DNA of 33,713 bases from Sedimentisphaerales bacterium (GTDB taxonomy: Bacteria; Planctomycetota; Phycisphaerae; Sedimentisphaerales; Anaerobacaceae), in assembly GCA_016936275.1 (NCBI GenBank), contig JAFGPJ010000238.1:1-33713 (forward strand), given 5' to 3'. The notes below the pieces were generated by a model. That model was not told where the DNA came from, did no database searches, and saw only the letters and a list, made by a program, of their open reading frames with translations. Numbering within the stretch: position 1 is the first letter of the stretch; every line of letters begins with the position of its first letter. Position numbers and translations under genes: made by a program. Of this stretch, positions 1-12,790 are shown piece after piece.

Positions 1-91
1 CACAGCCGGTCAGACACTTTATCAATGCCGTCTTGCCATGATCTATATGGCCGGCCGTACCGAGTGTGATGTTCTTTTGTGTCGTCGCCAT
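1..91 (-). CDS. selB: SelB, selenocysteine-specific elongation factor (5' end only)
   Basis: Only the first 30 codons are inside the window; the gene continues past its left edge. The reverse complement starts with ATG at 91 and encodes an N-terminal translation-GTPase G1 region, with [15 protein letters not shown] followed by LTG, which is the SelB form of the P-loop. SelB is an EF-Tu-like GTPase that carries Sec-tRNA to UGA codons marked by a SECIS hairpin. It starts 5 nt after the selA stop, so the two genes form a selA-selB operon. The identification rests on the short P-loop plus the adjacency to selA; another translational GTPase is very unlikely here. Confidence 0.9.
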
Positions 92-96
92 AGAGA

Positions 97-1512
97 TTAA
101 CTTTTTGTATTGAAAATCTTAATCAACGCATCGACCACTATTTTATCATCCCCGCTCAGAAGCGTCCGGGGGTCGATAAGTACCTGGTCGTTTTGGATTC
201 GCGTAAAAATCGGCTTGTCATTCTTGCGAAGCTTTTGTGCCAGCGATTCAGCATTAATTTTTTCGGAACGCAAAGCCACGAGAGTCGTCGCCAGGTTCTG
301 CGTTGGCAGTGAGCCGCTGCCCATTTGTGAAAAGCCGCTGGCCATGGTGACGGTAACGCCGGAAACGTTTTTATTCAATTGCTCTGCAATATCTTCAGCC
401 TGCTTCGCTATTTCGGATGAATCACGTCTGAGCATTTTCAGTGTCGGCAATTCGCGAAGAGCAACAGTTTCATCGAGAAATAACTTCAGTGTAGCTTCCA
501 GTGCAGCGAGGGTGAGTTTTCCAACGCGGACGATTCTGGCAAACTGATTTTTCCTCACGGCTTCGATCAATTTCTTTTTGCCGAGGATGATACCACCCTG
601 CGAAGCACCAATCAGCTTATCGGCGCTCGAAGTGACAATATCCGCCCCTTTGGCCACCGATTCTCTCAGGATCGGCTCAGGCTCGAATCCGAACTGCGAA
701 AAATCAATAAGCGCACCAGCGCCGACATCGTCGATCATAACCAGCTCATGTTTGTGAGCTATTTCTACAAGCTCATCGAGCGAGACTTCCGACGAGAATC
801 CCTGAATTTTGTAATTGCTCGGATGAACGCGGAGTATTGCAGCGGTGTTTTCGGTTATGGCATTGATGTAGTCTCGCGGGTGCGTTTTATTCGTGGTCCC
901 GACCTCGACAAGCTTTGCCCCGCTGAAAGCCATCACATCGGGCAGACGGAACGCCCCGCCAATTTCAACAAGCTGGCCGCGGGAGACGATGACTTCCCTG
1001 CCGGCCGCGACGGTATTAAGTACGATGCTGGTAGCCGCAGCATTGTTATTAACCACAGTGGCAGCCTCGGCGCCGGTTAGCTGCTGCAAAAGCTGCTCGA
1101 TATAACTATCTCGTTTTGATCGTTTGCCGGATTCGATATCGGCCTGAAGCAGAGAATAGCCTGACAGTTCATCCTGAATCTGGCGCAGCGCCTGAGCGGA
1201 AAGAACCGCCCGACCAAGAGCGGTGTGCAAAATAATACCTGTTGCGTTGACGACTTTTCGATAGTGCGGCCCGGAAATGGTTTTAAGACTGCTTTTGACA
1301 TCAGCAATTATTTGTTGACGAATTACATCTCCATCCGTCTCTACAAGGTTTTGGGCTAAAATACGCTCTCGGAAATCATCAATCGCCCGGCGAATGGAAT
1401 TAACAACAACCTGTCTGCCAAGATCGGCGGCACAATTTTGAAGATCAGGATCGTTCAGGAGGGCATCGACCGAAGGCAGATTCCGTAAAATTTGCTGGTT
1501 TGATAATGTCAT
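97..1512 (-). CDS. selA: L-seryl-tRNA(Sec) selenium transferase SelA
   Basis: A 471-residue PLP enzyme that converts Ser-tRNA(Sec) to Sec-tRNA(Sec) using selenophosphate; it acts in the cytoplasm as a decamer in characterised homologues. Visible family marks are the N-terminal helical part, the [16 protein letters not shown] block at about 88-102, the NNNAAAT block at about 155-161, [10 protein letters not shown] at 261-270, and the probable PLP lysine K299 in [13 protein letters not shown]. Length is normal for bacterial SelA. The ATG at 1512 has a good AGGAG ribosome site 7 nt upstream. It reads leftwards into selB with a 5-nt gap. Divergent from the selenoprotein gene region to its right. 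Confidence 0.97.
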
Positions 1513-1611: not shown

Positions 1612-1782
1612 AATCAAGTTCTACTTGATTGGGAAAGTAAGACCAGAGGTAAATTCGAGTATGGTTGAGGTTCTATGTGCAAGTACTCGTGGCGATTGCC
1701 GAGCGGTTTCAAAGGCAGGTTTCAGGTCAAAGTAGCTGCTAACCTGTGACCATTTGAAGCAAAACAAGAGGAAATCTGGCAC
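1612..1782 (+). pseudogene. Decayed 3' copy of the YGUGG selenoprotein (copy 1)
   Basis: This part of the 466-bp gap upstream of selA contains a remnant of the gene at 1979-2629. Read in the frame of 1612, it gives GKFEYG, then UGA (1666-1668), then GSMCKYSWRLPSGFKGRF, matching GKFKYG-U-GGTC...YLWQVPNDFNGKY of the intact gene. No N-terminal part, start codon or ribosome site is present. A SECIS-like hairpin is retained (1683-1689 with 1693-1699, UGG loop, one mismatch). A second in-frame UGA at 1747 replaces a Gly codon of the intact gene. The 36 nt from 1747 to 1782 are nearly the same as in the copy at 2773-2943. The rest of the 1513-1978 gap holds no other gene that I can see. Confidence 0.6.
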
Positions 1783-1978
1783 TCAATAGGCTGAAAATAG
1801 GCCTTATAAACGATTGTAAATAAAAGCAGTTAGTTTCTTCGAATATTCAATGCATTCCAGCGCAAAATTGAAGAAATTTTGTCCTTTCTACAGTAAATTT
1901 CAAAAAAAGAACGTAACAAAACCATTATTTCTGCGTCTGAATAAATAAATAACAAAACTACCCAGAGCCAGCGGTAAT

Positions 1979-2629
1979 ATGAAGAAAAAGGATATTTGGA
2001 TATCTTTAGCCATTATAGCGTGTTCAGGTTTGTCAGTCCTCTACTACACGCAAAGAAAAGGATATGTTAGTATTGATGCGGGCGGAACAGATGCCGTGTT
2101 GCAGCTTAACAGTATTTGGTTTATTAATACCACGATTCGTTCAGGTACAAAGCCGTCTGCCATCGGTGCACGAATCTACAGGCCGCAGCTTCTGAGCCTT
2201 TCAATGAAACAAGATGGGTACACATGGCGGATAGAAAGCCGCGGCTCCTGGGGCGACATATCAAAAATCAAGGTTAAAAACAACGAGGCAACGGCCCTCA
2301 AACTCGGACCGCCATTTCTGATTAAACCGAAAATTAAAAAAAATAGATCACATCTCTCGATAGATTTTACCATTACCGGGCAAGCTGGCGAGCAATACCA
2401 GAACTTCATAACAAAAAACAACCGGGCCGTCAATGGAGCGAAAATCAAAATCGTAGATGAAAAAGGAAACGTGCTTGAGTCCGGCAAATTCAAGTACGGC
2501 TGAGGCGGCACCTGCTATGAGTACTTGTGGCAAGTACCGAATGATTTTAACGGCAAATACCGGGTGGTTGTTGATATTGACCTTGGGCCGTTCGAGACCA
2601 TACAGTGTGAAACACGGTATTCGATATAA
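1979..2629 (+). CDS. Putative membrane-anchored selenoprotein with Sec-Gly-Gly-Thr-Cys motif
   Basis: The reading frame runs from ATG 1979 to a UGA at 2501-2503 and continues in frame for 41 more codons to TAA at 2627-2629. Reading UGA as selenocysteine gives 216 residues with Sec at 175: FKYG-U-GGTCYEYLWQVPNDF. The Sec and the Cys four residues later form a UxxxC pair. Residues 8-24 are hydrophobic and look like an uncleaved signal anchor, so the rest should lie outside the cytoplasm. The part around Sec (VDEKGNVLESGKF... GKYRVVV) looks like the edge strands of a beta-sandwich. Downstream of UGA lies a perfect 7-bp hairpin with UGG loop (2521-2537). Two decayed copies keep the UGA, the Cys and the hairpin. 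selA, selB, selC and selD are all nearby. I do not recognise the family. No strong ribosome site precedes ATG 1979. Confidence 0.75.
2521..2537 (+). promoter_or_regulatory. SECIS-like hairpin for UGA 2501
   Basis: GTACTTG (2521-2527) pairs perfectly with CAAGTAC (2531-2537) around a UGG triloop, which begins 25 nt after the UGA. Bacterial SECIS elements sit in this position, inside the coding region, and usually have a G early in the apical loop. The corresponding hairpin in the copy at 2773-2943 has a different stem sequence that still pairs, which supports selection on structure at some time in the past. Confidence 0.65.
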
Positions 2630-2772
2630 TATGAAAAATAGTCGCGCTAATTGTGGTGGGTGGCGGCACAGAATGCGTTTTGCTTTTTGCTTGGTTTTTG
2701 GAGAAAGTATTTGTACAATTTAGCAGGTTTTCAGAAGGTTTATTGTGTTAATCTTTGGTTAGGGAATTATCA

Positions 2773-2943
2773 GTGAAGGAGCCATTCGGATTAATTGTTG
2801 CCGTAGGTAATTTTGAGTACGGCTGAGGTGGCGTTTGCCGGTACTCGTGGCGAGTGCCAGAGTGTTTCAACAGCAGGTGCCATGTGCAGACAGACACGGC
2901 TTGTGACTGTTTGAAGCAGAACAAGAGGAGACCTGGCACATGA
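2773..2943 (+). pseudogene. Decayed 3' copy of the YGUGG selenoprotein (copy 3)
   Basis: Another remnant of the selenoprotein family, in the gap after the intact gene. From GTG 2773 the frame reads NFEYG, UGA (2824-2826), GGVCRYSWRVPECF, then diverges. Comparison with copy 1 shows a one-base deletion between about 2865 and 2903, after which the family sequence continues in another frame (UGA 2904, then a block ending at 2939). The SECIS-like hairpin is the best of the three: 2840-2847 pairs with 2851-2858 over 8 bp around UGG. GTG 2773 has a passable AGGGA ribosome site 7 nt upstream, so a 56-residue Cys-rich selenopeptide is possible, but I think decay is more likely. I see no other gene between 2630 and 3052. 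Confidence 0.55.
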
Positions 2944-3011: not shown

Positions 3012-3052
3012 ATTGGGACAATGGGAACGATGGCAAAAGAAAGGATATGACA

Positions 3053-3919
3053 ATGAATATGAAGATGATTCTTATTACTTTGGCATTTGTGGCCACCTTC
3101 GCTCTTATAGCAAAGTGTGCAGAGACAACTCAAGGAAGTCCTGCCGGACAGGGTAAACAGTTGCATCCGTGGTGCGGCAAGTATTGTATGAGCTTTTTCA
3201 CTAAAACAAGAAGTGCCAAAACGGTCGGTAAGGATCATTTATCCGTATCGCTCAAGTATCAGTACTATGACTGGGACCAGGTATTGGGAGCCGATGACGA
3301 TTATCATGGCCGGACATCGGGTCAACATAAGCAAAGATCAGTGTTTGTGCTCTGCTCAAAATATGGCTGGGCGGAGGACCATCATATCGCGCTCGGAGTT
3401 CCATATTGGATGAACGATTTCGATATCCCCGGCAAAGAAAATGACAGCGATGGTCTTGCAAACATCTATGTGTTTGAGAAATGGAACTTTATTAAGGAAA
3501 CGAATAATTTCCCCGGGATTGCCGTCGATTTTTGGTACTACTTTCCTTCGGGAGATACGGATAAGTCGCTGGGGAATGACGACGGAGCCTACAAGATATC
3601 GACTGAGATTTCAAAAGCGTGGAAGGATTTCTCGCTGCACTTCAATCCGAACTATTTATGGAGCGAGAATGATGATGCAGAGGTTGGGGAAATAAATGGG
3701 GCTGTTCTTTTTAACCTCGATCCGGGCTTTTGGCCGGCGGTCGAATACAACTACCTTGACAAAGAAGGTAAGGGTCATAGTCACGACCTTGTGCCGGGTT
3801 TTATTTGGAAATTCAAAAAGGGATGGTCGTTTAAGGCCGGTCTTCCCATTAGTCTCGATTCTACTTTTACTGATAGAGACAGGATTGGACTTGTTCTCAA
3901 GCTCTTTCATTTGTGGTAG
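3053..3919 (+). CDS. Outer-membrane beta-barrel protein, phenol-degradation MetA/transporter-like
   Basis: About 288 residues with an N-terminal signal peptide (hydrophobic residues about 4-18) and then alternating aromatic-rich strands such as LSVSLKYQYYDWDQV, GIAVDFWYYFPSG and WSFKAGLPISL, ending in a short C-terminal strand LVLKLFHLW, as expected for a Gram-negative outer-membrane barrel. The overall pattern recalls the Phenol_MetA_deg family of putative outer-membrane transporters; this is from memory of the pattern. A WCGKYC pair of cysteines lies just after the signal peptide. I prefer ATG 3053 because AAGGA lies 7 nt upstream; ATG 3047 is only 1 nt from it. It is followed after 62 nt by a periplasmic binding lipoprotein and ABC transporter, so it may be the outer-membrane entry for the same substrate. 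Confidence 0.65.
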   Translation: MNMKMILITLAFVATFALIAKCAETTQGSPAGQGKQLHPWCGKYCMSFFTKTRSAKTVGKDHLSVSLKYQYYDWDQVLGADDDYHGRTSGQHKQRSVFVLCSKYGWAEDHHIALGVPYWMNDFDIPGKENDSDGLANIYVFEKWNFIKETNNFPGIAVDFWYYFPSGDTDKSLGNDDGAYKISTEISKAWKDFSLHFNPNYLWSENDDAEVGEINGAVLFNLDPGFWPAVEYNYLDKEGKGHSHDLVPGFIWKFKKGWSFKAGLPISLDSTFTDRDRIGLVLKLFHLW

Positions 3920-3981: not shown

Positions 3982-5136
3982 ATGAAAAAGGTGACGTTCA
4001 TATTTGGTGCATTGCTGATCTTCACAGTTTTTCTGACAAGCTGTAAACAGAAGGATAAAACCGGAAAATCGACAGGAACAACAACCCTGAAAATCGGGCA
4101 TGTCGGTCACGACCACCATACAGCTTTATTTATTGCTCTGGATAATGCTTCTGAATATGCCAGTCAAAGCGGAATTAGCTTGAAGATTATCGAAGATCGT
4201 AAGTTTTACGAACTTTTGGATCAGGGTAAGAAGGTTGCAGACCTTGAAATAATGAAAGTTGGGGGCGCATCCAAGATGCCGACAGCTCTTGCACAAGATG
4301 TCATTGAAGTAGGCTTCGGTGGCGTCGCCCCTGTGCTTGCTTCAGCGGATAGCGGAGCTCCAGTTAAGCTTATAGCACCGCTTCACTATAAAGGGGATAT
4401 GTTTGTTGTTAAGCATGATTTTCCTGCAAAGACGTGGAAAGAATTTGTTGCTATAGCCAAAGCCACAGACAAGCCGATACGCATTGGATATAAGAATCCG
4501 GTGGCTGTGGCAAAGCTGGTGTTCGAGGAAGCGCTGAAGCACGAAGGAATCAAATTCGGGGGCGACCCGGCACAAACTGATCTGAAGGTGCAAATGGTAA
4601 ACGTAAAAGGTGGAAACAAACTCAACATTTCTCTTGGAAGCGGATTGATAGACGGTTACGCCGGAAACAATCCGTTCCCGGCAATTGCGGTCGAAAAGGG
4701 CATTGGGCGTATTGTCTGTGACCTTGAGGACTTACCGCCGGGAACATTTCAAGATCATCCATGCTGTTGTATCGCTGCCAATACAAGGGCCATAGAAGAG
4801 AAATCCAATGCCCTTGTGGCGTTACTCATATTGCTAATCCAGGGTACTGAAACAGTAAATTCAGATATGGACAAGGCTGTGGCAGCGGCAGTGCGATGGA
4901 TAGGAACAAGCGAATCCGTCGAACGAATAAGTATTCCCACAAGTGGTTATTCCATGGAGCCTTCCGAGCAATGGCATAAAACCATGAGCAAATGGATTGA
5001 GGCTATGGACGGACTTGGTATATTCAAAGATAAGCTAAAAGGCCTGAAACCGAACGATATACAGCAAGCTGCATATGACTTGTCGTTATTAGAGAAAGCG
5101 AGGAACAAACTTGCCCAGAGGCGTACAGGAACATAA
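3982..5136 (+). CDS. ABC transporter substrate-binding lipoprotein, SsuA/TauA/NMT1-like
   Basis: A 384-residue periplasmic binding protein with a lipoprotein signal (lipobox FLTSC, Cys21). The body shows the two-lobed NMT1/SsuA style: LKIGH...A at 36-54, an AQDVIEVGFGGVAPVLA lobe at 104-120, and a KAT..KPIRIGYKNPVA second lobe at 160-175. These proteins bind nitrate, sulfonates, taurine, thiamine precursors or similar small ligands and pass them to an inner-membrane permease. Oddities are a His cluster near the start (GHVGHDHHTA, H40, H43, H45, H46) and a Cys triplet C261-C263 in FQDHPCCCIAA. AAAGGA precedes ATG 3982 by 7 nt. The end overlaps the permease gene by 26 nt. Substrate cannot be told from sequence; location between sel genes suggests a selenium compound. 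Confidence 0.85.
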   Translation: MKKVTFIFGALLIFTVFLTSCKQKDKTGKSTGTTTLKIGHVGHDHHTALFIALDNASEYASQSGISLKIIEDRKFYELLDQGKKVADLEIMKVGGASKMPTALAQDVIEVGFGGVAPVLASADSGAPVKLIAPLHYKGDMFVVKHDFPAKTWKEFVAIAKATDKPIRIGYKNPVAVAKLVFEEALKHEGIKFGGDPAQTDLKVQMVNVKGGNKLNISLGSGLIDGYAGNNPFPAIAVEKGIGRIVCDLEDLPPGTFQDHPCCCIAANTRAIEEKSNALVALLILLIQGTETVNSDMDKAVAAAVRWIGTSESVERISIPTSGYSMEPSEQWHKTMSKWIEAMDGLGIFKDKLKGLKPNDIQQAAYDLSLLEKARNKLAQRRTGT

Positions 5137-6028
5137 AAAACTATGGCGTTTATCCCGGTGGCTGGGATGTCCGTCTGGGGGGTATTTCAGTGAATTACGT
5201 GCCTCACAAACCGGCTCGTATTTAGGCTGGATTATTATGCCTGTTATATTGCTTGTCGTCTGGCAGTTTGCAGCGGTGTGGCTGAACCAGCCGTGGATTT
5301 TTCCGCCGGTGACTCTTGTGATTGACCAGCTTGTACATCCGCTTCGGGAGCACTACGCATCAGGTTCGATTTTGAGTAATACATTTATAAGCTTGCTGCG
5401 TGTGTTGCTGGGTTTTCTTTTGGCCGCATTGACGGGGGTAAGCCTGGGAATTGCTATGGGTTCTATCCGCTTTGTCCGTGGCGGCCTTGAACCGATTGTA
5501 GAAGTTTTGAGACCATTGTGCCCGATTGCATGGTTGCCCTTTGCTATAGCTGTTTTCAAAAGAGGAACGCTGCCGCAATTGTTCGGCTTAGGATACACCC
5601 GAACCGTTTTTGACCAGGTCCAATTGGGAATGGTTTTCGTGATCTTCGTAGGAGGTTTCTTTCCCATTCTGACTAACACGCTCGACGGTGTCACAGGAGT
5701 CAGGCGTAACTATTTACTGCTGGCACAAGCGCTGGGCGCAAAGCGAAGGCGGGTTTTTTGGCATGTGTATTTGCCCGCGTCGATGCCAATGATTCTGACG
5801 GGTCTGAGACAGGGGCTTGGATTATGCTGGTTTGTCATCATCGCTGCGGAAATGTTACCGGGCGCCGAGAGCGGTATTGGGTATCTGCTCATATACGCTT
5901 CGGACAATGCCGCAATGGATATCGTGATTGCAGCTATGTTGATTGTCGGCAGCATCGGAGCCCTTTTGAGTCTAATGATGCGCAGGATTATGTCCGGTCT
6001 TGTCCGGTGGCACGGAAAGGAAATCTGA
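5111..6028 (+). CDS. ABC transporter permease, SsuC/TauC-like
   Basis: About 305 residues with roughly six membrane segments, starting near WIIMPVILLVVWQFAAVWL (about 41-58). The binding-protein-dependent permease (EAA) loop is visible as LLAQALGAKRRRVFWHVYLPASMP, which docks on the ATPase. This is the inner-membrane channel of the transporter. The start is a TTG at 5111, inside the end of the binding-protein gene, with AGGA 6 nt upstream. The first in-frame ATG is 5237, which would cut into the first membrane segment, and the ATG at 5143 is in another frame and leads to a 16-codon dead end. The next gene starts 4 nt after its stop, so the three ABC genes are one operon. Confidence 0.85.
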   Translation: MPRGVQEHKKLWRLSRWLGCPSGGYFSELRASQTGSYLGWIIMPVILLVVWQFAAVWLNQPWIFPPVTLVIDQLVHPLREHYASGSILSNTFISLLRVLLGFLLAALTGVSLGIAMGSIRFVRGGLEPIVEVLRPLCPIAWLPFAIAVFKRGTLPQLFGLGYTRTVFDQVQLGMVFVIFVGGFFPILTNTLDGVTGVRRNYLLLAQALGAKRRRVFWHVYLPASMPMILTGLRQGLGLCWFVIIAAEMLPGAESGIGYLLIYASDNAAMDIVIAAMLIVGSIGALLSLMMRRIMSGLVRWHGKEI

Positions 6029-6032
6029 AATT

Positions 6033-6821
6033 ATGTCACATGGTGGAATCGACAGTTCATCGAAAGAAAAAGTCATGGCCCTGGAGGTTTACAAGGTCGG
6101 CAAGACTTTCCGATCAGACACGGGTACCAGTGTCAAGGCATTAAGGGATGTAAATCTTCTTGTTCGCCAGGGAGAGCTCGTTACTCTCGTTGGTGCGACA
6201 GGGTGCGGCAAAACTACTTTGCTCAATCTTATTGCAGGATTGGATACGCCTGATGAGGGATATTTACGTTTGGGGCAGGATTTGCGCTTTGGGGGCAACA
6301 TCGCTCACGTGTTCCAGCATTATACGTTGTTTCCGTGGCGAACGGCGATTTCCAACGTATCGTTCGGCCTTCAGATGCGAGGTGTCCGACGAACGGAAAG
6401 ACTATGCCGGGCTGCTGCCCTGCTCGCCAAAGTCGGACTCAAGGGCTTTGAAAATGCTTATCCACATGAGTTGTCCGGCGGGATGCGACAACGGGCGGCA
6501 ATCGCCCAGGCACTGGCAATAGAACCGAAGCTTTTGCTTATGGACGAACCGTTCGGGGCCGTTGATGATTCAACCAGGACTGAGCTTCAACAGATGTTGA
6601 CCGATTTGTGGCAGGAAAATCAGACAACCATCATCTTCGTTACACATAATATTGATGAAGCCATCGTCCTGGGCAGCAAAGTTATAGTCTTCAGTGAACG
6701 TCCCGGCAAAATTGCCTGCGAATTCAAGATAGAACTGCCCCGCCCAAGAGACCGGATGAACAATGAATTTACCAAGTTATTTATTCAGATTCGGACGATG
6801 CTATCGGGGCAACTGGATTAG
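6033..6821 (+). CDS. ABC transporter ATP-binding protein, SsuB/TauB-like
   Basis: A 262-residue nucleotide-binding subunit. Walker A is GATGCGKTTLLN, the Q-loop is HVFQHYTLFPWRTAISNV, the signature is LSGGMRQRAAIAQAL, Walker B is LLLMDEPFGAVD, and the switch histidine is in VTHNIDEAI. The FPWRT stretch and overall length fit the nitrate/sulfonate/taurine subfamily. ATG 6033 lies 4 nt after the permease stop with AAGGA about 12 nt upstream; ATG 6075 (MALEVYKVGK) is an alternative start nearer to the conserved domain. Partner of the two genes upstream. Confidence 0.9.
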   Translation: MSHGGIDSSSKEKVMALEVYKVGKTFRSDTGTSVKALRDVNLLVRQGELVTLVGATGCGKTTLLNLIAGLDTPDEGYLRLGQDLRFGGNIAHVFQHYTLFPWRTAISNVSFGLQMRGVRRTERLCRAAALLAKVGLKGFENAYPHELSGGMRQRAAIAQALAIEPKLLLMDEPFGAVDDSTRTELQQMLTDLWQENQTTIIFVTHNIDEAIVLGSKVIVFSERPGKIACEFKIELPRPRDRMNNEFTKLFIQIRTMLSGQLD

Positions 6822-6868: not shown

Positions 6869-7277
6869 ATGCAAATACCACATGATGCAAAAGAGCTTAT
6901 GGAACAGAAGAAGGTCATTGCTCTGGCGACAGCCATCGAAAAAGGCTATTCCAAACGTCGTTTACATGCTGCAATACTGGTGGTACCAGCCTGACGTCCT
7001 GGTCATCGGAGATCTTTTTATGAACGCTACATGTCGAAATATTCAGGAAAATGGGTATGCTTCATTCTGTGTCTGGGACGAAGAGACAGACAAATCTTAT
7101 AAATTTATCGCGATGGCAACATACGAGACATCGGGCGAAGCTTACGAATTCGCCAACGCCAATCTTCACAAGAAAAAACCTGATAACAATTTCAAAGGTG
7201 TGGTTGTTATCACAGTGACCGAAGTGTTTGACGCCTCTCGCGGCGAAAACGCAGGAAAACTCATCGCCAAGGCATAG
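6869..7277 (+). pseudogene. Pyridoxamine 5'-phosphate oxidase-like flavin protein, frameshifted
   Basis: ATG 6869, preceded by AAGGGGT, opens a frame that reads MQIPHDAKELMEQKKVIALATA and then leaves the family pattern and stops after 41 codons. The frame one base over continues with the family sequence IPNVVYMLQYWWYQPDVLVIGD to TAG 7275-7277. Removing one base between about 6935 and 6945 (five A residues at 6939-6943) restores a single protein of 135 residues with the PNPOx pattern (L-ATA-xxx-PNVV near the start, split-barrel FMN fold). Such small proteins bind FMN or related cofactors; the real reaction is unknown. It lies between the ABC transporter and selD. The shift may be a sequencing error in a homopolymer or a true inactivation; the remainder of the frame shows no other damage, which favours error or a recent event. 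Confidence 0.7.
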
Positions 7278-7318: not shown

Positions 7319-7359
7319 AATCTTTATGTATTTTAATAATCATGTTAGAGGATAATCAA

Positions 7360-8991
7360 ATGATAAACATGGAAAGACGAAAACGAGTCATGCAGCGTTC
7401 GATACGGTTGGGCCACTGCATTTGCGATCACAGGCTGCCGTGTCCTTGTGATGTTTTCAAGGAAAAGAACATCTGTACGTGTGCCGGAGAGCGGCCTGAA
7501 GCCCCTACTGGCCCGGTGCAATTGACAAAACTTGTGGAAAAGGCTGGTTGCGCTTCGAAGATCGACCAGGCGTTTCTAAAGCAGGTGCTGAAGAATTTGC
7601 CCACCGTAGATGATCCCCGTGTCCTGGTCGGTGTGCCGGCGGGAGACGATGCCGGCGTGTACGACATGGGCAATGGCACGGCCCTTGTGCAGACCGTTGA
7701 TGTTTTTACGCCGTCCGTTGATGATCCATACACGTTCGGGCAGGTTGCGGCGGCAAATTCGGTCAGTGACATTTACGCTATGGGCGGAACGCCGATGACC
7801 GCGGTATCCGTACTCGGTTTTCCCGTCCGCAAGGTCCCCGATGAAACTATGGGCCAGGTTCTTTCCGGCGGTATCGACAAGATGAACGAAGCCGGAGTGG
7901 CTATCATCGGCGGTCACAGCATCAATGACAGCGAGATTAAAGCAGGTTTCGCTGTCACCGGCACAATAAAAACGGACAAAATCGTAACCAATGCCGCTGC
8001 CAGGCCCGGCGACGTGCTCATCCTGACCAAGCCCCTCGGCACGGGAATCGTAGCTTTTGCAGCACAAATCGGCAGGGCTAAAGCAGAGAGCGTCACAGCA
8101 ACCGCCGAATCGATGACCACACTCAACAAAACAGCCTCACAGCTCATGGTCAAATTTGGGGCCCATGCCTGCACTGATGTGACAGGCTTCAGCCTGATGG
8201 GGCACCTTGCCGAGATGGCCCTCTCAAGCGGTGTGGACGTCGAAATCATCTGGGACGATATTCCGTTGTTTCCCGGCGTGCTCGAATACGCCGCTGCGGG
8301 AATTCTGCCCGGAGCGATCGAGCGAAACAAGGAATCGTGCGGCGACCGCATTGTTGCCGACGAATCTCTGCCGCAGGAGATGGTCGATATGTGCTATGAT
8401 GCGCAAACATCAGGCGGCCTTCTAATTGCCATCGCAGAAAATGACGCCGTTGCTTTCCTGAAAGCTCTTCATAAAGATGGAATTTCCGCCGCCGCTATTG
8501 TCGGCAGAGTTCTCAAAAAAGGCTCAGGACTCGTTCACATTAAAACTACCGGCAGTCGGAAAATACCAACACCAAGCCCCAGCCAACCGATAGCAAAAGC
8601 AGCACCTACAATAAAGAAATCATCACAGGCTCCCGCAGAGGTTGCCAGCGAAGATGTAGCATGTTGTGCTGATGATGTATCCTCGACCGCGGGAACGAAA
8701 GAAGTCTCTGAGATCGACGAAATTAAGGCTAAATTCACGGATTTTCTCGGCGCCGCAAGCTCACCTCATGGCCTGGACGCCTACACCAAGCAGGCGATGG
8801 CTCTTGCGTTGTCGGTAGCGACGCGGTGTGAGCCGTGCCTGAAGATGCACCTGAAAAAGGCTAAAGAGAAAGGCTTCACCCAGGACGAAATCGACGAGGC
8901 CGCATGGATGGGCATAAGCTTCGCCGGAAGCCCCGCGATGGTCTTTTACGAGCAGCTTAAGAATTCGTTGCCCAGTTGCCAGGATCGATAA
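7360..8991 (+). CDS. selD: Selenophosphate synthetase fused to Cys-rich N-terminus and AhpD-like C-terminal domain
   Basis: A 543-residue three-part protein. Residues 18-42 form a Cys-rich segment (C20, C22, C28, C30, C39, C41, as GHCICDHRLPCPCDVF). About 53-390 is SelD, which makes selenophosphate from selenide and ATP: active-site GCASK (C64, K67), PAGDDAGVYD, TVDVFTPSVDDPYTFGQVAA, and GGHSINDSEIKAGFAVTG. After an Ala/Pro-rich linker (about 400-447), the last 85 residues are a carboxymuconolactone decarboxylase/AhpD-like domain with CEPCLKMH (C490, C493, H497), a redox-type CxxCxxxH. Typical SelD is about 340-350 residues. AGAGG 8 nt before ATG 7360 favours this start over ATG 7342. No Sec codon is used in its active site. 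The added redox modules may hold or reduce the selenium donor; this is inference. Confidence 0.93.
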   Translation: MINMERRKRVMQRSIRLGHCICDHRLPCPCDVFKEKNICTCAGERPEAPTGPVQLTKLVEKAGCASKIDQAFLKQVLKNLPTVDDPRVLVGVPAGDDAGVYDMGNGTALVQTVDVFTPSVDDPYTFGQVAAANSVSDIYAMGGTPMTAVSVLGFPVRKVPDETMGQVLSGGIDKMNEAGVAIIGGHSINDSEIKAGFAVTGTIKTDKIVTNAAARPGDVLILTKPLGTGIVAFAAQIGRAKAESVTATAESMTTLNKTASQLMVKFGAHACTDVTGFSLMGHLAEMALSSGVDVEIIWDDIPLFPGVLEYAAAGILPGAIERNKESCGDRIVADESLPQEMVDMCYDAQTSGGLLIAIAENDAVAFLKALHKDGISAAAIVGRVLKKGSGLVHIKTTGSRKIPTPSPSQPIAKAAPTIKKSSQAPAEVASEDVACCADDVSSTAGTKEVSEIDEIKAKFTDFLGAASSPHGLDAYTKQAMALALSVATRCEPCLKMHLKKAKEKGFTQDEIDEAAWMGISFAGSPAMVFYEQLKNSLPSCQDR

Positions 8992-10582: not shown

Positions 10583-10677
10583 GGAGGTGACTGGTGCCTG
10601 GTGGTGCCCCTGGTCTTCAAAACCAGCGTGGGGCTGAGAAGGTCCCGGGTGGGTTCGATTCCCATTCGCCTCCGCCA
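10583..10677 (+). tRNA. selC: tRNA-Sec (UCA anticodon)
   Basis: A 95-nt tRNA with encoded CCA. The acceptor stem has 8 bp (GGAGGUGA with UCGCCUCC), the T stem 5 bp around UUCGAUU, giving the 13-bp stack typical of bacterial tRNA-Sec. The D stem has 6 bp (GGUGCC with GGUGCC through two G-U pairs) with a four-base loop. The anticodon loop is CUUCAAA with anticodon UCA at 10617-10619, and there is a long variable arm (about 10628-10648). The discriminator base is G. It delivers Sec at UGA with SelB. The next gene, also a selenoprotein, starts 74 nt downstream without an obvious terminator, so they may be co-transcribed. Confidence 0.97.
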
Positions 10678-10751: not shown

Positions 10752-11015
10752 ATGATAAATAAGAATACGAAAATCCTCATCTTTGGCCTGCTCGTGCTGC
10801 TCGGGGCGGCCCTGCTGACATACGGGGCATTCTTCCATTCGACGAACGTCTCGGCCCAGCAGGACGGCCAGCCTGTCCTGCTCGCCAAGTCGGAATCCGC
10901 TCTTATCAAGGACGCGTCCGTCAGCGGCGTCAAGCGAGATGAAACGGGTAAAATCAAGCAGACATACGAAATAGGCGAGAAGGCACCCGAAACTTGCTCG
11001 ACCTGAGGCAGTTAA
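10752..11015 (+). CDS. Small membrane-anchored selenoprotein ending Cys-Ser-Thr-Sec-Gly-Ser
   Basis: ATG 10752 with AAAAAGGA about 8 nt upstream opens a frame of 84 codons to UGA 11004-11006; the next codons are Gly, Ser and TAA (11013-11015). Read with Sec the product has 87 residues. Residues 8-27 are a membrane anchor; the rest would face the periplasm and ends ETCST-U-GS, a CxxU redox pair (C82, U85). An 8-bp hairpin with UGG loop (11021-11039) starts 15 nt after UGA, as in the selenoprotein at 1979. It sits between tRNA-Sec and a NapH-like polyferredoxin gene whose ATG lies within the hairpin. I do not recognise the family. If UGA were a plain stop, the product would be 84 residues and lose the CxxU pair. 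Confidence 0.75.
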
Positions 11016-12008: not shown

Positions 12009-12790
12009 ATGGGGAAAAGCACTAATGAAACCAAACTCGTCCTTTCTTTAGGACCGATATTTTTGTTAACTTTCGCTCTGATAGTTTTTATGAGCGTAAG
12101 AAAGACCAGCCTCAACAGGCCCAACAGGCCGTTAAATATCAGAAGACCGAAACGTCAGATAAGATTGGCCTGCATATAATGGATGCCGGCCTGCCGAATA
12201 CGGATCGTGCTAAGGGCTTCATGCATTTTCTCACAAAGCATTTCCGGCAGGTGGAAACTATGGACTACAATACCTTCACGGGCAGCCAAACGGCTGATTT
12301 CGATGTCGTTATTATTGACCACGACGGCGCGAACACCAGGGCGCCACGACCAAACATAAGCCGCCAATACGCACGTGCTACTGTTACCGTAGGAGTTCCT
12401 GGCGCATTCTTATGCAGCCAGCTTTCTCTCAAAACCGGATACTTGTGAAACTGCATGGCAGATGCGGCCCATGCTGGGTCGCTTGAGCATGAGATATTTG
12501 CCAAACCTTTCAAGGTCGAGCCACAGTTTGAATATCGCGAAACAGAAACCCTCAAACGGCTGATTTATCTTTTAGAGGATGAAAAACACGCCGATACCGC
12601 TCAGAGTCTATTAGCACGATATACTAATGAGTCATTTCAGGTTGCAGAGCAATGGCAATCATGGTTTAAAGGTAATAATGACAGAATTTTCTTCAGCTAC
12701 GTAGGCGGTTTCAAGTTCTTTGAGGTTCCCAAAGGGTATATAGAAAGCAATACACCAACGACAGTAATAGAAAAAAGGGACAACGGTTAA
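12009..12790 (+). pseudogene. Third selenoprotein candidate (Sec-Asn-Cys), with an upstream frameshift
   Basis: ATG 12009 (AAGGT about 10 nt upstream) encodes a membrane anchor, LGPIFLLTFALIVFM, reading MSVRK at 12090-12104. The frame must then shift to continue as DQPQQAQQAVKYQKTE; one added A near 12101-12103 joins them. In the second frame the sequence runs to UGA 12446-12448 and on for 113 codons to TAA 12788-12790, without a break. With Sec the whole would be about 260 residues with Sec near 147: SLKTGYL-U-NCMADAAHAG, a UxC pair. The first half (DVVIIDHDGA ... VTVGVPGAFLC) looks like a Rossmann-type domain but I cannot name it. Two overlapping hairpins follow the UGA (12453-12474 and 12464-12482). 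The frameshift may be a homopolymer error; if real, the gene is broken. Alternative: two separate ORFs, which the shared frame and composition make unlikely. Confidence 0.6.
12453..12482 (+). promoter_or_regulatory. Possible SECIS region for UGA 12446
   Basis: Two mutually exclusive stems are visible. GCATGG (12453-12458) pairs with CCATGC (12469-12474) around a 10-nt loop rich in G. Alternatively GCGGCCC (12464-12470) pairs with GGGTCGC (12476-12482), 7 bp with one G-U, around ATGCT; its loop is about 23-27 nt after UGA. Neither has the UGG triloop seen at the other two selenoprotein genes. Confidence 0.4.

Follow-up and report, generated by a model that had tools for sequence, protein, structure and literature searches.

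A gene on a contig of a Sedimentisphaerales bacterium (Planctomycetota; GenBank assembly GCA_016936275.1, contig JAFGPJ010000238.1) carries an in-frame UGA, and the question that this locus raises is whether this codon ends the protein or is read as selenocysteine (Sec). The window, by which we mean the whole stretch of DNA analysed (33,713 nucleotides), presents the following situation:

1979..2629, + strand: inferred selenoprotein gene; product of 216 aa, Sec at residue 175 (ORF, homologues and AlphaFold model)
2501..2503, + strand: in-frame UGA read as Sec (U175), with Cys at U+4 (homologues and pattern scan)

The open reading frame 1979–2503 encodes 174 aa, and past the UGA a further 41 sense codons lead to a TAA at 2627–2629. 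When read with Sec, the product exhibits a membrane helix at its N-terminus followed by two beta-sandwich domains, and the sequence around the site is ...FKYG-U-GGTC-YEYLWQVP..., with Cys179 at U+4 completing a UxxxC pair. A preliminary description, made from the sequence alone, had reported the in-frame UGA at 2501, the 41 codons and the Cys residue four positions on, the membrane anchoring, the UxxxC pair and the premature stop that annotation would place at 2503: all of these held, the last according to a mechanical ORF caller, which does end the gene there. Taken as one claim, it is very likely that the UGA is decoded as Sec in an envelope protein, although this rests on calculation only, without selenium labelling or mass spectrometry. 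Reassignment of the genetic code was considered and rejected, because UGA ends other genes of the window normally (such as those for NapH, dapA and a sigma factor).

Three outcomes would have refuted the selenocysteine reading: homologues that all end before the UGA, a lack of conservation past 2503, or the absence of sel genes from other genomes that carry the family. The first two did not materialise. Within the GTDB family of the window, 40 of the 89 genomes contained matches, often several each and almost all with exactly one internal TGA; in the class sample 65 of 397 genomes matched and in the phylum sample 78 of 392, some of the weak hits in the latter covering the N-terminal part only and ending before the Sec site. 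Hundreds of homologues keep the sequence downstream of the UGA, nearly all of them with UGA at the same site, and the downstream part is the most conserved, with conservation peaking at and past the UGA in residues G174, U175, G176, C179, S183, W184, R185, V186 and P187. The Cys residue at U+4 was present at 41 of the 46 sites found by protein search without a DNA pattern. The pattern UGA-x9-TGY-hairpin was present in 39 of the 89 GTDB-family genomes, with the reversed-pattern control giving 0 everywhere. A pattern scan of genome contigs returned at least 117 stretches, and the carriers listed there are nearly all Planctomycetota (Phycisphaerae/Sedimentisphaerales, Pirellulales and Brocadiia), together with a few Verrucomicrobiota and Lentisphaerae bins, and all named carriers listed are metagenome assemblies. 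Family genes were also noted in L099 (JABMRB010000324.1), labelled Candidatus Nealsonbacteria, where a binning error is possible.

The preliminary description had proposed a search for homologues with Cys or UGA at the site: both forms were found, with Cys being rare. Homologues carrying Cys in place of Sec were seen in G015, G163, G180 and G388, genomes without SelB over cut-off or tRNA-Sec, whilst in the G417 homologue U and the +4 Cys were lost together. One long member (G071:C22:6490-7074, L039) exhibits Arg (AGA) in place of Sec, with the +4 Cys kept and the stem of the hairpin described below broken. The family comprises short anchored, ~470 aa, multi-TM and lipoprotein-like architectures, with up to nine UGA-hairpin sites per genome and many paralogues distant from sel genes; an upstream hydrophobic segment is present in 151 of 202 distinct ORFs when these are judged by a simple hydropathy rule.

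Decoding of UGA as Sec in bacteria would be directed by a bSECIS hairpin, and the candidate lies 3' of the Cys codon:

2521..2537, + strand: bSECIS hairpin GUACUUG-UGG-CAAGUAC, 24 nt after the UGA (covariation and folding energy)

This hairpin of 7 bp with a UGG loop, the loop lying 24 nt past the UGA, is encoded by the Y-(S)-W-(R)-V-P codons of the family. The published bSECIS model describes a loop of 3–9 nt with G in the first two loop positions, 16–37 nt after the UGA (PMC13188914), and this geometry is met by the window hairpin (G second in the loop, 24 nt), with family-wide support. The isolated hairpin has an energy of -6.4 kcal/mol (-2.7 for shuffled sequences), with 5 of 200 shuffles equally good; the 45 nt of 2501–2545 reach a minimum-energy fold of -12.7 kcal/mol, but with a different pairing. 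Against a bSECIS threshold of <= -7.5 kcal/mol, the isolated hairpin falls short, and the 45 nt satisfy it only with that other pairing; a strict bSECIS energy rule is failed by the window copy and passed by 30 of the 1162 TGAs of the window. There is no Rfam model for the hairpin. The perfect SECIS-like hairpin at the right distance claimed in the preliminary description held, as did its geometry when 2501–2545 was checked as had been suggested, but the energy alone is modest and it is the comparative evidence that decides.

This evidence stems from 44 distinct sequence windows, taken from loci identified by protein similarity or neighbourhood; none came from the DNA pattern scan, whose sequences were left uncounted, since part of the stem is dictated by the pattern itself. 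Across these, 98.1% of pairs are standard, 5 of the 7 stem pairs have changed on both sides and 20 cells are doubly compensated. The covariation score was 0.279 versus 0.120 for shuffled alignments, a value reached by 0 of 500 shuffles, and the signal was destroyed when the partner strand was slid. At the Ser/Arg positions, Ser-TCG/Arg-CGA changes together to Ala-GCG/CGC or Thr-ACG/CGT such that the stem is kept, Leu-TTG/Gln-CAA takes its place in the window copy with pairing kept, and a joint change of Tyr-TAC/Val-GTA to Leu-CTC/Glu-GAG also preserves the stem: this is a clear case of residue covariation (Y/V to L/E, S/R to L/Q) that is explained by an encoded RNA hairpin. The Ser codon is TCG in 37/37 instances, the codon preceding Tyr ends in G in 44/44, and the stem is broken in homologues without the UGA. 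A synonymous-codon energy test over the 54 nt after the UGA gave only a faint signal (mean z -0.58, with 75% of values below 0), the stem being short and in competition with other folds, and covariation was used instead.

The third refuting outcome concerns the machinery for Sec insertion, of which the window contains:

1..91, - strand: start of selB, truncated at the contig edge, with the remainder on G000:C372 (read from sequence)
97..1512, - strand: selA, divergent neighbour of the family gene (PF03841, E 6e-142)
7342..8991, + strand: selD fused to a C-terminal CMD/AhpD domain (profile matches)
10583..10677, + strand: tRNA-Sec (UCA)

The claim of a full sel set in the window was therefore only partly upheld: selA, selD and tRNA-Sec are complete, with selB represented by its first 91 bases only. 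The SelD protein (7342–8991, +) also has an extra Cys-rich N-terminus (CICDHRLPCPCD). Across the GTDB family, SelA was found in 29 genomes, SelB in 31 and a high-scoring tRNA-Sec in 25 (union 35); tRNA-Sec was counted only above about 55 bits, and by E-value alone all genomes match. The exact UGA-hairpin pattern was present in 35/35 genomes with SelA, SelB or tRNA-Sec compared with 4/54 of the others (Fisher 1.2e-20, 89 genomes, kinship ignored), where the p value overstates independence because the genomes are related. No GTDB-family genome with Sec machinery was without the pattern, and with 35 of the 39 pattern-bearing genomes having such machinery, this outcome too can be ruled out. In the remaining four (G021, G030, G032 and G070) no SelA, SelB or tRNA-Sec was found: the G030 copy has an extra TAA and a decayed look, the G070 assembly is only 70% complete, and in case of G021, G032 and G070, with UGA and hairpin intact, missing assembly or a recent loss of the Sec trait are possible explanations.

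The AlphaFold (AF2) model of the product (pLDDT 90.8) predicts a membrane anchor and two Ig/macroglobulin-like beta-sandwiches, with U175 placed in a lower-confidence loop (171–181) and four strands following it; a family member of ~450 aa is also almost all beta. A thioredoxin-like selenoprotein was rejected, given the all-beta Ig-like model and the UxxxC spacing, which is neither UxxC nor CxxU. Searches of Pfam, NCBIfam and PDB sequences did not give a confident family for the window protein or its relatives, there was no match to named selenoprotein families (NCBIfam 20.0; the 119 prokaryotic families/subfamilies in Table 1 of a 2026 review, PMC13188914), and no paper naming the family was found in the literature searched. 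The family had been described as unrecognised, which held with respect to Pfam, NCBIfam and the PMC13188914 list. We consider it very likely that this is a previously uncatalogued bacterial selenoprotein family with an unusual Ig-like fold, with the provisos that the fold is a model prediction and that the statement extends to the databases searched only. The decoding signal, conservation, co-occurrence with sel genes, gene neighbourhood and fold prediction are the calculated support, and the selenoprotein and envelope parts of the reading are very likely. Overall, the preliminary observation was confirmed and had been understated, and its interpretation is supported with the exception of the "redox" end, which is not established: an Ig-like beta-sandwich is not a usual redox fold and there are no activity data.

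Two decayed copies had also been reported beside the gene, and both were confirmed:

1645..1785, + strand: decayed copy 1, 3' end only, UGA at 1666–1668 and another UGA further on (read as a relic of gene 1 in the G039 array)
2764..2913, + strand: decayed copy 2, UGA at 2824–2826, frameshifted, hairpin intact

The neighbouring species G039 (L034) has three full copies at the same place. Fragment 1645–1785 best matches copy 1 of these, with copies 1 and 3 scoring nearly equally, and fragment 2764–2913 best matches copy 3; the arrangement in the window could have arisen if an array of three genes had contracted. The window's own genome holds a further family member (G000:C123), with an N-terminus that resembles a lipobox and an ACG/CGT compensation of its own.

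Two other candidate selenoproteins were noted in the window. The first (10752–11015, +) is a small membrane protein ending ...APETCSTUGS-stop, with CxxU near the C-terminus, encoded directly before a NapH-like gene; similar endings are found in L069, L070 and L217. The second (12179–12790, +) displays an in-frame UGA in ...KTGYL-U-NC-MADAAH (a UxC motif) that is kept in L044, L059 and L176; a relative had no Pfam match.

As to the role of the family, coordinate comparison places a family gene <=2 kb from selA in 21 of the 29 genomes with selA, usually in divergent orientation. There it stands at the head of either of two types of operon: one comprises a methyltransferase, HGD-D proteins, a BadF ATPase and SelD, whilst the other, found in the window, contains a MetA-type barrel, a substrate-binding protein, a permease, an ATPase, a PNPOx-like protein and SelD:

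3047..3919, + strand: Phenol_MetA_deg-like protein, conserved neighbour
3982..5136, + strand: NMT1/SaoX-like substrate-binding protein
5111..6028, + strand: ABC permease, closest NCBIfam model SaoP, below cut-off
6000..6821, + strand: ABC ATPase, closest NCBIfam model SaoA, below cut-off
6882..7277, + strand: PNPOx-like small protein, conserved neighbour

Short selA-adjacent members usually lie beside SelD/HGD-D or ABC genes, and the recurrent neighbours of long multi-TM members are NapH, a small CxxU-COOH protein and carboxypeptidase-repeat proteins with an AhpC/TSA-like end. In other systems, a link to methyl-selenium metabolism has been drawn for methyltransferases and double-cubane proteins encoded close to sel genes (PMC10418091). 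In the mechanism that we propose, SelA, SelB, SelD and tRNA-Sec would decode UGA 2501–2503 as Sec under direction of the hairpin, yielding an envelope protein with a membrane anchor and tandem Ig/macroglobulin-like domains in which Sec and Cys are predicted to share one loop of the C-terminal domain; the 174-aa product stopped at the UGA would lose the last four strands of this domain. The Sec/Cys pair may then provide a selenol/thiol site at the envelope where selenium (or soft-metal) compounds are bound or reduced; from there they would pass either to the importer encoded alongside or to the methyltransferase and double-cubane (HGD-D/BadF) enzymes in the cytoplasm, which would feed SelD. Gene neighbourhood favours such handling at the envelope, of selenium in particular, but it is the only basis of the inference, without activity data, and we would place this role on the doubtful side, with the caveat that different members sit in different operons. 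A bolder reading, which is possible, is that the main family beside sel genes in these Planctomycetota constitutes a selenium-dependent selenium-acquisition system: an extracytoplasmic Sec would capture selenium compounds, or convert them, so that the cell can make its own selenoproteins, with the Ig-like modules deployed in many architectures.

Two rival explanations of function remain close and possible. In the first, the task of the Sec/Cys site is to detoxify mercury or other soft metals at the envelope, as in SAO organometal systems, rather than to handle selenium: SaoP and SaoA are the nearest models to the window's ABC permease and ATPase, but the Sao matches lie far below the curated cut-offs and the operons carry selD together with HGD-D/BadF, linked to selenium metabolism (PMC10418091). 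In the second, the protein is a redox carrier in the envelope, working by selenol/disulfide exchange or by reducing peroxides, and draws its electrons from two products of the same islands, the NapH-like ferredoxin protein and the small protein with CxxU. In its favour, NapH, CxxU-COOH and AhpC/TSA-like-ended proteins recur near long multi-TM members and UxxxC could form a selenenylsulfide; against it, the fold is Ig-like and not that of a thioredoxin or peroxiredoxin, and the short selA-adjacent members usually have SelD/HGD-D or ABC genes as neighbours instead. It is very unlikely that the UGA is a selenium-sensing switch, with truncated (selenium-scarce) and full (replete) products tuning the adjacent sel operon: the divergent position beside selA-selB in most genomes would fit, but numerous paralogues lie well away from sel genes, truncation would leave a broken domain in the AF2 model and no regulatory domain was found. 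That the UGA is a true stop followed by a pseudogene tail or chance similarity is all but excluded, since in spite of the adjoining decayed fragments and the unexceptional energy of the window hairpin alone, UGA and downstream region are kept in hundreds of members (Planctomycetota and a few Verrucomicrobiota/Lentisphaerae bins), the RNA shows compensatory changes and the C-terminal domain would lose four strands in the AF2 model.

On the preferred reading, that of an envelope selenoprotein, the findings would add a large multi-copy family from Planctomycetota and a few Verrucomicrobiota/Lentisphaerae bins, groups in which selenoproteins seem little studied, with an Ig-like fold in place of the usual redox folds. 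As standard gene calling ends these genes too early, the C-terminal domain would be lost from annotation, and because Cys forms are rare the family may escape pipelines built on Cys/UGA pairs; according to the deep-Sep authors, families without Cys homologues may be missed by their own pipeline (PMC12013277). The tight link to selA/selB suggests that the family possibly helps to keep the Sec trait in these bacteria.

Comparison with catalogued prokaryotic selenoproteins reveals common features, namely the in-frame UGA, bSECIS, Sec machinery and some Cys homologues, whilst none of the catalogued proteins has an Ig-like UxxxC domain and Cys forms are rare in the window family. The beta-sandwich fold is shared with MG2/macroglobulin, FN3 and bacterial Ig-like domains (PF01835 and relatives; PDB complement C3/C5, TIE protein), although PF01835 matched weakly in only 11 of 76 members (best E 7e-6), TM-scores were low, PDB and viral fold searches gave generic Ig, FN3 and macroglobulin matches only, and no Sec-bearing example of such domains was found in the searches made. 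The SAO system resembles the window in having ABC importer genes within a selenoprotein neighbourhood; however, the SaoX/SaoP/SaoA scores of 33/144/235 bits compare with NCBIfam cut-offs of 300/295/360, and SaoL, SaoC and SaoT had no match among the window proteins scanned. Type I mlp clusters (PMC10418091) differ in that the methyltransferase of the family operons matches SAM-type models, best PF08241 (Methyltransf_11), with no coenzyme-M-type methyltransferase detected by Pfam at this position (gene cluster only, not whole genomes), but both systems combine a methyltransferase with HGD-D/BadF-type proteins near sel genes.
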